Shown here: piece after piece, positions 33,015-37,279 of the stretch
Layout: each line of letters starts with the position of its first letter
How positions within the stretch are numbered: the stretch's first letter is position 1
Notes under the pieces: generated by a model
Database searches by the model: none
What the model saw: the letters and a program-made list of their open reading frames with translations, nothing else
Told to the model about the DNA's origin: nothing
Source: Limnobacter sp.
Lineage (GTDB): Bacteria > Pseudomonadota > Gammaproteobacteria > Burkholderiales > Burkholderiaceae_E
Length of the DNA: 37,279 nucleotides
Reading direction: 5' to 3'
Assembly (NCBI GenBank): GCA_012513825.1
Contig: JAAZBL010000480.1
Span: 1-37,279 of the forward strand
Translations under genes and position numbers: made by a program

Positions 33015-34823
33015 TCAGAACTGATCGACCTCCAGCGCAAGCACGCCGGCGGCGCCTTCGAGGATCGAACTCGCCAGCGCCGGCGCCTGGTTCAGGAGGT
33101 GGTCGGCGTGGAAACGCGAGGTTCCGATCTTCGCCTTCAGGAAAGCGGCGTCGGCATTCCCGTCGCCCAGCAGCCTGTCGGCGGCCAGCGCACCGCGCGC
33201 CAGTTGCCAGCCCGACAGCACGATGCCGGCGAGCTTCAGGTACGGCACGCTGCCTGCGAAGACCGCGCGAACGTCGGATTTCATGTTCGAGACGACGAAA
33301 TCGACGGCCGCTTCGAGCGCGCGGCTGCCGTCGGCCAGGCGCTTGCCGACGGCCTGGAGGTCGGCGCTGCGGCTGCCCAGCAGCTCCGCCTCGGTTGCAC
33401 GAACCTGCTCGATCAGCGCCTTCGCGACCGCACCGCCGTCGCGCGAGGTCTTGCGCCCGACGAGGTCGTTGGCCTGGATCGCGGTCGTGCCTTCGTAGAT
33501 CGTCAGGATGCGCGCGTCGCGATAGAACTGCGCCGCCCCGGTCTCCTCGATGAAGCCCATGCCGCCATGCACCTGCACACCGAGCGACGCGACCTCGATC
33601 GACATCTCGGTCGACCAGCCCTTGACGATCGGCACGAGGAACTCGTAGGCCGCCATGCTCTGCCGGCGCAGCTCGGGATCGGGAGAATGATGGGCGATGT
33701 CCGAGCGCGAAGCCGCGTAATAGGCCAGCGCGCGCGCTGCTTCGACGTGCGCGCGCATCGTCATCAGCATCCGGCGTACGTCGGGATGCTGGACGATGGC
33801 CACCGGGCCGGGCGAGCCGGCGACATCGCGGCTCTGCACCCGCTCCTTCGCGAATGCGGCCGCCTTCTGGTACGCGCGCTCGGCCACCGCGATGCCCTGG
33901 ATCCCGACCGCGAAGCGCGCCGAGTTCATCATGACGAACATGTACTCGAGGCCGCGATTCTCCTCGCCCACGAGGTAGCCGATGGCGCCGGGACCGACCT
34001 CGCCCTTGTCGTCGCCGTAGACGAGCACCGCGGTCGGACTCGCCTTGATCCCCAGCTTGTGCTCGATCGAGGTGCACCAGACGTCGTTGCGCTTGCCGAG
34101 CTTGCCGCTGCCGTCGTCGACGAATTTCGGCACGATGAACAGCGAGATGCCCTTGACGCCTTCGGGCGCGTCGGGCGTGCGGGCCAGCACCAGGTGGACG
34201 ATGTTGTCCGCCATGTCGTGCTCGCCGAAGGTGATGAAGATCTTCTGGCCCGAGATCCGGTAGCTGCCGTCGGGCTGCGGCACCGCCTTCGCGCGCACCA
34301 GCGACAGGTCGGAACCCGCCTGCGGCTCGGTCAGGTTCATCGTGCCGGTCCATTCGCCCGAGATCATCTTCGGCAGGTAGGCCTGTTTCTGCTCGTCGGA
34401 CCCGGCGGTCAGCAAGGCCTCGGTGGCGCCGTCGGTGAGCAGCGGGCACAACGCGAACGACAGGTCGGCGGCATTCAGCATCTCGATGCACGGCGTGCCG
34501 ATCAGCTTGGGCAGCCCCTGGCCACCGTAGTCGACCGGGTGCTGGATCCCCTGCCAGCCCCCCTCGGCGAACTGCCGGAACGCTTCGCGATAGCCGGGCG
34601 AGGTCGTGACGACGCCGTCGGACAGCGTGGACGGCATCTCGTCGCCGCCGCGGCCGAGCGGCGCCACGACGCCCTCGTTGAAGCGGGCACACTCTTCGAG
34701 CACCGCCTGGGCGGTATCGATGCCGGCATCCTCGAAGCCCGGCAGTTGCGCCACGGCTTGCAGCTCGGCGACATGCTCGAGCGTGAACAGCATGTCCTTC
34801 AGGGGGGCCTTGTACGCCGACAT
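33015..34823 (-). CDS. Acyl-CoA dehydrogenase family protein (DmdC-like, about 600 aa)
   Basis: MSAYKAPLKDMLFTLEHVAEL, GEWTGTMNLTEPQAGSDLSLVRAKA, QVHGGMGFIEETGAAQFYRDARILTIYEGTTAIQANDLVGRK. Confidence 0.93.
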   Translation of the reverse strand: MSAYKAPLKDMLFTLEHVAELQAVAQLPGFEDAGIDTAQAVLEECARFNEGVVAPLGRGGDEMPSTLSDGVVTTSPGYREAFRQFAEGGWQGIQHPVDYGGQGLPKLIGTPCIEMLNAADLSFALCPLLTDGATEALLTAGSDEQKQAYLPKMISGEWTGTMNLTEPQAGSDLSLVRAKAVPQPDGSYRISGQKIFITFGEHDMADNIVHLVLARTPDAPEGVKGISLFIVPKFVDDGSGKLGKRNDVWCTSIEHKLGIKASPTAVLVYGDDKGEVGPGAIGYLVGEENRGLEYMFVMMNSARFAVGIQGIAVAERAYQKAAAFAKERVQSRDVAGSPGPVAIVQHPDVRRMLMTMRAHVEAARALAYYAASRSDIAHHSPDPELRRQSMAAYEFLVPIVKGWSTEMSIEVASLGVQVHGGMGFIEETGAAQFYRDARILTIYEGTTAIQANDLVGRKTSRDGGAVAKALIEQVRATEAELLGSRSADLQAVGKRLADGSRALEAAVDFVVSNMKSDVRAVFAGSVPYLKLAGIVLSGWQLARGALAADRLLGDGNADAAFLKAKIGTSRFHADHLLNQAPALASSILEGAAGVLALEVDQF

Positions 34824-34938: not shown

Positions 34939-35871
34939 TCAGCCGAGCTCCTTGACCAGCTCGGGAACGACCGTGAACAGGTCGCCGACCAGACCGTAGT
35001 CGGCCACGCCGAAGATCGGCGCTTCCTCGTCCTTGTTGATCGCGACGATGACCTTGCTGTCCTTCATGCCGGCCAGGTGCTGGATCGCACCGGAGATGCC
35101 GACGGCGATGTAAAGCTGCGGCGCGACGATCTTGCCCGTCTGCCCGACCTGCCAGTCGTTCGGCGCGTAACCGGCGTCGACGGCCGCGCGCGATGCGCCC
35201 ATCGCTGCGCCGAGCTTGTCGGCGAGCGGCTCGAGCAGGTGGAAGTTCTCGGCCGAGCCCATGCCGCGTCCGCCCGAGACGACGACCTTGGCGCCGGTCA
35301 GTTCGGGGCGGTCGCTCTTGGCCAGTTCGCGGCCGACGAAGCTCGACTTGCCCGAGTCGGTCACCGCATCGACCTTTTCGACCGCCGCCGAGCCGCCGCT
35401 GGCCGCGGCCGCATCGAAGGCCGTACCGCGCACGGTGATCACTTTCACCGGATCGGCCGATTGCACGGTGGCAATCGCGTTGCCTGCGTAGATCGGACGC
35501 GTGAAGGTGTCGGGCGATTCGACGCTGGTGATCTCGGAGATCTGCGCAACGTCGAGCTTGGCGGCCACCCTCGGCGCGACGTTCTTGCCGTGCGCGGTGG
35601 CGGGAAACAGGATGTGGCTGTAGCCGTCGGCGACGGCCAGCACCTGCGCGGCGACGTTCTCGGCCAGTTGATCGGCCAGTTGCGGCGCGTCGGCCAGCAG
35701 GACCTTCGTGACGCCGGCCGCCTGAGCGGCGGCCTGCGCGACGGCTTCGCATCCGGAGCCCGCCACCAGCACGGTGACGTCGCCACCCGTCTGCGCGGCC
35801 GCGGTAATCGTGTTCAGCGTCGCCCCCTTGAGCGTCGCGTTGTCGTGTTCGGCGATTACGAGAGCTGCCAT
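34939..35871 (-). CDS. etfA: Electron transfer flavoprotein alpha subunit
   Basis: [91 protein letters not shown]. Confidence 0.97.
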
Positions 35872-35887: not shown

Positions 35888-36637
35888 TCAGATCACTTTC
35901 GCTTCGTTCTTCAGCTTGTCGACCAGCGTGGCGACATCGGGCACCTTGATCCCGGCCTTGCGACCCGGCGGATCGGAAACCTTCAGCGTCTTGAGGCGCG
36001 GCGCCGGGTCGACACCCAGGTCCGCAGGCTTGACGTTGTCGAGCGGCTTCTTCTTCGCCTTCATGATGTTGGGCAGCGTGACGTAACGCGGCTCGTTCAG
36101 GCGCAGGTCGGTCGTGATCACCGCCGGCAGCGCGATCGAGACCGTTTCGAGCCCGCCGTCGACCTCGCGCGTGACCTGGGCCTTGCCGTCGGCGACCTCG
36201 ACCTTCGAGGCGAAGGTGGCCTGCGGCATTTCGGCCAGCGCGGCCAGCATCTGGCCGGTCTGGTTCGCGTCGTCGTCGATCGCCTGCTTGCCCAGGATCA
36301 CGAGCTGCGGCTGTTCCTTGTCGACCAGCGCCTTGAGCAGCTTGGCCACCGCCAGCGGCTGCAGTTCCGCATCGGTCTCGACGAGGATGGCCCGGTCCGC
36401 GCCGATCGCCATCGCGGTGCGCAGCGTTTCCTGGCAGGACACCGGCCCGCAGGAGACGGCCACGATCTCGGTCGCCACGCCCTTCTCCTTCAAGCGTACG
36501 GCCTCTTCGACGGCAATCTCGTCGAACGGGTTCATCGACATCTTCACATTGGCGATGTCCACACCGGTCTGGTCGCTCTTGACGCGCACCTTCACGTTGT
36601 AGTCCACCACGCGCTTCACGGGGACGAGGATCTTCAT
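35888..36637 (-). CDS. etfB: Electron transfer flavoprotein beta subunit
   Basis: [53 protein letters not shown]. Confidence 0.97.
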
Positions 36638-36672: not shown

Positions 36673-36678
36673 ATTATA
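36673..36678 (-). promoter_or_regulatory. Candidate -10 box (TATAAT) for etfBA-acyl-CoA dehydrogenase
   Basis: Minus strand ACCTATAATTGATTCC; -35 not evident. Confidence 0.5.
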
Positions 36679-36781: not shown

Positions 36782-36800
36782 GTGTCAACCTGGTTGACAC
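36782..36800. promoter_or_regulatory. Palindromic operator candidate 1 (GTGTCAACCTGGTTGACAC)
   Basis: Perfect 9-bp arms around a central T; contains TTGACA (36794-36799). Confidence 0.75.
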
Positions 36801-36828
36801 GGCGATTATCGTGCGCGACGATGTTCGT

Positions 36829-36843
36829 GTCAACCTGGTTGAC
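36829..36843. promoter_or_regulatory. Palindromic operator candidate 2 (GTCAACCTGGTTGAC)
   Basis: Identical 15-bp core to candidate 1; centres 45 bp apart. Confidence 0.75.
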
Positions 36844-36875: not shown

Positions 36876-37279
36876 ATGTCCACCAATCTCCAGCAACTGC
36901 TGATTTCCCGCACCGAATGGTTCTCCCGCGGCATCATGAACCACGTGCGCCGCGAGCACGCTTACATCACGCCGGCACAGAGCCGGTTGCTGATGCACAT
37001 GGCGGGCCGCCCGGCCAGCATGTCCGAGCTGGCCAGGCGCCTCGCGATCTCGCGCCAGGCCGTGCACAAGACCGTCGCCGAACTCGTTCGGCGCGGCATT
37101 CTCGAGGTGCGCGCCGACCCCGAGCGCCGCAACCAGCGGCTGGTCGTCTATACCGCGAAGGGCAAGCAGGTGAACCGCTCGGGCGTACGCATCATCGAGT
37201 CGATCGAGCAGCGCATCGCCAAGCGCCTGGGCCACGACAAGCTCGAAACGCTGCGGGAACTGCTGGCGGCCGACTGGGA
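36876..37279 (+). CDS. MarR family transcriptional regulator (3' end beyond window)
   Basis: MSTNLQQLLISRTEWFSRGIMNHVRREHAYITPAQSRLLMHMAGRPASMSELARRLAISRQAVHKTVAELVRRGILEVRADPERRNQRLVVYTAKGK: winged HTH with DxRxxR-type wing. Confidence 0.88.
   Translation, partial: MSTNLQQLLISRTEWFSRGIMNHVRREHAYITPAQSRLLMHMAGRPASMSELARRLAISRQAVHKTVAELVRRGILEVRADPERRNQRLVVYTAKGKQVNRSGVRIIESIEQRIAKRLGHDKLETLRELLAADW

Follow-up and report, generated by a model that had tools for sequence, protein, structure and literature searches.

Twin palindromes between divergent marR and etfB genes as probable operators of a MarR-family autorepressor

The window analysed here, i.e. the whole stretch of 37,279 nucleotides, is an entire contig (C439), and the MarR-family regulator gene at its edge is therefore cut by the contig end. 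The regulator gene is divergent from etfB, which is followed by etfA and an acyl-CoA dehydrogenase gene:

33015..34823, minus strand: acyl-CoA dehydrogenase of 602 aa, its C-terminal domain being PF12806 (best PDB match 8png, E=8e-148)
34939..35871, minus strand: etfA, electron transfer flavoprotein alpha subunit (PF00766 and PF01012)
35888..36637, minus strand: etfB, electron transfer flavoprotein beta subunit (PF01012, E=3e-42)
36876..37279, plus strand: MarR-family regulator gene, cut by the contig end (PF12802 MarR_2, E=2e-14)

EtfBA links acyl-CoA dehydrogenases to the respiratory chain as the carrier of their electrons. Comparison with orthologues shows the truncated MarR gene to lack only about its last two residues, and its winged-helix domain scores above the curated cut-off (PF12802, 53.8 bits versus 27). 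A structure model of the protein (pLDDT 93) adopts the MarR fold, in which residues 58-65 (ISRQAVHK) start the recognition helix (H60-72) and the wing is formed by E76-80/E88-92; the best fold matches in the PDB are MarR proteins with a TM of about 0.7-0.8. Every match to the named NCBIfam MarR equivalogs, including AdcR, TcaR, HpaR and BilQ, is far below the cut-off.

Between the divergent genes the palindrome GTCAACCTGGTTGAC occurs twice, at 36784-36798 and 36829-36843, and we predict the two copies to be operators:

36782..36800 (core 36784-36798), no strand: predicted operator 1, GTGTCAACCTGGTTGACAC, containing the -35 of marR and, for the etfB promoter P1, the predicted start site
36829..36843, no strand: predicted operator 2, GTCAACCTGGTTGAC, carrying the minus-strand -35 of P1 and the predicted marR start site

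The first palindrome extends to 19 bp, the second reads TGTCAACCTGGTTGAC together with the preceding T (36828), and 32 bp lie between the second copy and the MarR ATG (36876). The centres at 36791 and 36836 are 45 bp apart; an earlier note on this DNA had described two identical 15-bp cores, the first reaching 19 bp, at this distance, which is correct to the base. The same note had proposed a genome search for further copies, and this search for exact GTCAACCNGGTTGAC sites returned only the twin copies in the 4.05 Mb genome, with 0.011 expected from base composition. Allowing up to three mismatches gave four matches in the window against 1.0 +/- 1.1 expected, so that weight can be given to the two perfect copies only. 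A regulon search of the own genome with up to two mismatches yielded 32 places, of which only the twin copies are perfect; the others were rejected as regulon sites, as they look like GC-rich chance matches, although not each was inspected. Relaxing the pattern to GTCAAC-N3/4-GTTGAC added one genome site (C394:12435-12450, with the N4 spacer; position 1501 of L121), which was rejected as an operator, being located inside a flagellar-hook-type coding sequence. As a separate observation, a single GTCAACGCAGGTTGAC recurs letter for letter in eight genomes of the family (its own, on C394, and G078, G079, G084, G009, G014, G016 and G017); this recurrence probably reflects coding constraint, with only the own-genome copy read as coding.

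Orthologues of the MarR protein (58-100% identity) were found in 24 of 74 family genomes, the window's own included, among them Zeimonas arvi (75% identical protein), a Lautropia sp. assembly and Quisquiliibacterium transsilvanicum, while a 25th family genome has only a 38% homologue (L013). A protein search of 399 sampled genomes of the order found no orthologue outside the family. All counts and p-values given here overstate independence, the orthologues being phylogenetically related. In gene arrangement, marR is divergent from etfB (83-98% identical) in 24/24 loci, and etfA and the dehydrogenase gene come next wherever the fetched DNA reaches. GTCAAC-N3/4-GTTGAC is present in the marR-etfB gap of all 24 loci. 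Two palindromes (up to two mismatches) with starts 45-47 bp apart occur in 19 of these gaps, four (L051-L054) have one palindrome and a TGTCAAC half-site 47 bp on, and L048 has a single palindrome. Across 43 sites each of the six positions of the GTCAAC half-site is conserved in 83-86 of 86 cases, while the flanks drift.

The core spacer is 3 bp in both window copies, 4 bp in the nearest relatives and mixed in L037-L042; the dimer must thus tolerate both the 15-bp core of the window and the 16-bp core of its closest relatives. The change is matched within a locus, as both operators have the 3-bp spacer in the window and both have 4 bp in L008-L010, a pattern suggestive of gene conversion or of operators and regulator having evolved together. 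In MarR-less genomes no palindrome was detected upstream of etfB at any of 26 loci with upstream DNA available. The resulting co-occurrence of site and regulator is strong (Fisher p about 3e-14, calculated on slightly smaller counts), although the relatedness of the orthologues overstates its independence.

The palindromes coincide with two overlapping, oppositely oriented promoter predictions, and a third element lies closer to etfB:

36794..36822, plus strand: predicted marR promoter (TTGACA 36794-36799, 17-bp spacer, GACGAT 36817-36822)
36805..36833, minus strand: predicted etfB promoter P1 (TTGACA 36833-36828, 17-bp spacer, GATAAT 36810-36805)
36673..36678, minus strand: TATAAT -10 of a predicted second etfB promoter P2, with a weak -35, about 105 bp from the first palindrome

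Each palindrome holds the TTGACA of one of the two overlapping promoters, and the predicted starts, at about 36798 for etf and 36829 for marR, fall on the inner edges of the opposite operators. The positions previously given for the TTGACA and GACGAT hexamers hold, and the assignment of this TTGACA as the marR -35 gains support from a -10-like hexamer conserved 17-18 bp on in the orthologues, the window's own GACGAT being weak (3/6). P1 is the stronger of the two, shares the same 45-bp stretch and had been overlooked. We compared one representative per clade (13 clades) with 5000 shuffled spacers: the observed score for -10-like elements at 17-18 bp was reached by 0/5000 shuffles on either strand, the plus-strand -10 usually being nAnnAT and the minus-strand -10 TAnnnT or GATAAT. 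The TTGACA of P1 is kept in 23/24 family loci, and in L051-L054 the outer arm of operator 2 has been lost, yet its etfB-directed TTGACA is retained. The 45-47 bp between the sites correspond to 4.3-4.5 helical turns, placing them on roughly opposite faces of the helix, so that the spacing appears to fit promoter geometry better than dimer-dimer contact.

A TATAAT for the etf cluster about 100 bp away had been pointed out before and is indeed present, but the operator-tied etf promoter is P1 inside the palindrome pair. TATAAT lies 35-80 nt ahead of etfB in most loci of the family, those with MarR and those lacking it alike (etfB upstream regions: L152-L171), and we count it separately from the operators. 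Judged from its sequence, P2 is a putative ancestral, MarR-independent second etfB promoter.

Beyond the family, a scan restricted to a single genome for each species yielded a distant set of 41 MarR loci with 19-54% identity, the 54% being a short match. ISRQAVHK was one of the search seeds, making the common helix of the 41 loci partly a product of construction; the operator was not used in the search, and hence only its association is independent. TGTCAAC-N3/4-GTTGACA (at least 11 of 14 positions) occurs within 300 bp upstream of 37 of the 41 ISRQAVHK MarR genes, with 0 to 0.2 expected per locus, and a second site lies 36-51 bp away in 21 of the distant loci. In contrast, the motif is found upstream of none of 13 MarR genes of 27-41% identity with other helices (37/41 versus 0/13, p=2e-9). 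The ISRQAVHK regulators range over Burkholderiales, Pseudomonas, Acinetobacter, Legionella, SAR86, Rhodobacteraceae, Campylobacterales and Bacillaceae. Homologues of 37-43% identity divergently flank acyl-CoA dehydrogenase genes (L076, L078, L082, L083) or adjoin AMP-binding, acyl-CoA ligase-type genes (L077, L079). More distant ones have unrelated neighbours (CarD-like, MFS, DUF2798, LysM) and the operators persist.

The arrangement of the pair differs between groups. Four Bacillaceae loci (L098, L101, L108, L110) combine an ISRQAVHK MarR gene with twin TGTCAAC-N3-GTTGACA sites 45-47 bp apart and are divergent from CarD-like genes, the neighbour being Pfam-confirmed in L098 and similar in sequence in the other three. 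Alphaproteobacterial and Campylobacterales homologues (L099, L102, L103, L105, L106, L109, L112) have their twin sites 37-39 bp apart, not 45-47.

Searching in the opposite direction, from twin sites to the genes beside them, in 369 genomes sampled across the class and 399 across the phylum returned six beyond the window. In L181 (about 1500-1580) and L183 (about 1500-1578) twin GTCAAC palindromes separate an aminotransferase-like gene from a divergent MarR-like gene; the helices differ (SKQAMHG and TKQALNA, respectively), and this is the same layout in another MarR subfamily. Of the other four, one is close to a MarR-like gene with the helix SRQAAHK, another adjoins a TetR-like gene (L184) and two have no assigned neighbour. 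Twin sites at MarR genes with other helices and at a TetR-like gene mean that the motif recurs at MarR genes and is not diagnostic of one helix.

We consider it slightly more likely than not that ISRQAVHK MarR proteins share one operator code, TGTCAAC-N3/4-GTTGACA, whatever their targets, and that in about half of them two such sites form a pair (about 38-39 or 45-47 bp) whose spacing would be set by the overlapping divergent promoters and not by dimer-dimer contacts. If this is true, the autoregulatory sites of many uncharacterised regulators become predictable from sequence alone, and the association of helix and operator would extend such predictions to the sites and targets of many uncharacterised MarR genes. 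We consider this cross-phylum association the more interesting part of the analysis.

The sequences show the palindromes, their conservation, their co-occurrence with the regulator, the geometry of the promoters and the association of helix with operator; binding, the sign of regulation and the ligand are inferred. Together this supports a model according to which the palindromes are very probably twin operators of the adjacent MarR autorepressor, acting on the divergent marR and etfB-etfA-acyl-CoA dehydrogenase genes, with acyl-CoA-type release and P2 giving basal expression. MarR dimers would occupy both operators, each covering the -35 of one promoter and the predicted start of the other, and would block both interlocked, opposite sigma-70-type promoters. 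MarR may then be released by a metabolite connected with the oxidation of acyl-CoAs, the likeliest candidate being an acyl-CoA thioester, at which only the gene neighbours hint, while P2 with its TATAAT would supply MarR-independent basal expression of the etf electron carrier. Control of marR and possibly of the etfBA-acyl-CoA dehydrogenase cluster had been proposed in the earlier note; phylogenetic footprinting, co-occurrence of site and regulator and the helix/operator association now strongly support control of marR and, probably, of the cluster.

The twin palindromes might instead regulate marR only, the etfBA-acyl-CoA dehydrogenase genes running from P2 without meaningful control. The conservation of the P2 TATAAT near etfB with and without MarR, the persistence of the operators beside changing neighbours beyond the family and the loss of the outer arm of operator 2 in L051-L054 are in line with this reading, and P2 could carry most of the etf expression with MarR control being minor. 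Against it, the etf-directed TTGACA-17/18-TAnnnT/GATAAT element is kept in 23/24 loci, even where a palindrome arm is gone, and marR-etfB synteny is found in all orthologues; we therefore regard exclusive control of marR as improbable. Somewhat less probable still is that MarR acts as an activator or that its ligand tightens DNA binding, as acyl-ACP does for FabT: ligand-enhanced repression of the FabT type and activator MarR proteins both exist (PMC5487221), but here the sites overlie, in both promoters, the -35 as well as the predicted start, which favours steric repression. It is very unlikely that the palindromes bind some other regulator, or are RNA hairpins or a sequence repeat, and lie near marR by chance: twin GTCAAC sites do occur at MarR genes with other helices (L181, L183) and at a TetR-like gene (L184), but every MarR-bearing locus has the sites, compared with 0/26 MarR-less etfB loci, and the motif tracks ISRQAVHK MarRs across phyla despite different neighbours.

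Our preferred model, the autorepressor acting on both divergent units, describes a circuit of an ordinary kind, while this particular circuit seems undescribed: the literature searched, with incomplete coverage, contained neither a MarR regulator of etfBA nor a match to this operator. A MarR protein dedicated to etfBA and the dehydrogenase would add a new point of local control, and interlocked promoters with twin operators and a MarR-independent second promoter form a compact, testable design. FadP, PsrA and LiuR, proteins of the TetR or MerR families that regulate the catabolism of fatty acids and branched-chain acids, likewise control acyl-CoA oxidation genes in beta- and gammaproteobacteria (PMC5343134). 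The regulators of fatty-acid degradation named there (FadR, FadP, PsrA) include no MarR protein, and for the corresponding genes in Burkholderia and Ralstonia the predicted regulator is FadP, which is of the TetR type (PMC5343134). The best PDB match to the recognition-helix segment is AdcR, a zinc-dependent MarR protein (3tgn), from which the window protein differs in its helix residues and in its score (31 bits versus the NCBIfam cut-off of 175).

CouR from Rhodococcus jostii RHA1 is a MarR repressor of hydroxycinnamate catabolism with an acyl-CoA thioester ligand, and its inverted repeat overlaps -35 boxes of the TTGACA type in divergent promoters, one of which is that of couR itself (PMC4737184). 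Unlike the twin GTCAAC-N3/4-GTTGAC sites of the window, one common operator, cATTGA-N5-TCAATg, serves couN/couR; a PDB chain labelled CouR (6c28) matches the window MarR weakly (23 bits). BadR of the bad-ali cluster in Aromatoleum sp. CIB is a MarR repressor responding to cyclohexanecarboxyl-CoA, whose two operators cover the -35 boxes of a divergent promoter pair and which tolerates a half-site spacing varying from 2 to 4 bp (PMC9795900). It resembles the window system in being a MarR protein with an operator over each divergent -35, a placement predicted from sequence in the window, and in its acyl-CoA-metabolising target genes. The two differ in operator and target, BadR recognising CAAT-N2-ATTG with CHC-CoA as effector, whereas the window locus has TGTCAAC-N3/4-GTTGACA in its place and etfBA-dehydrogenase as the predicted target. 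BadR is the closest described system and CouR the second, the operator sequence and the targets of the window system being distinct from those of both.
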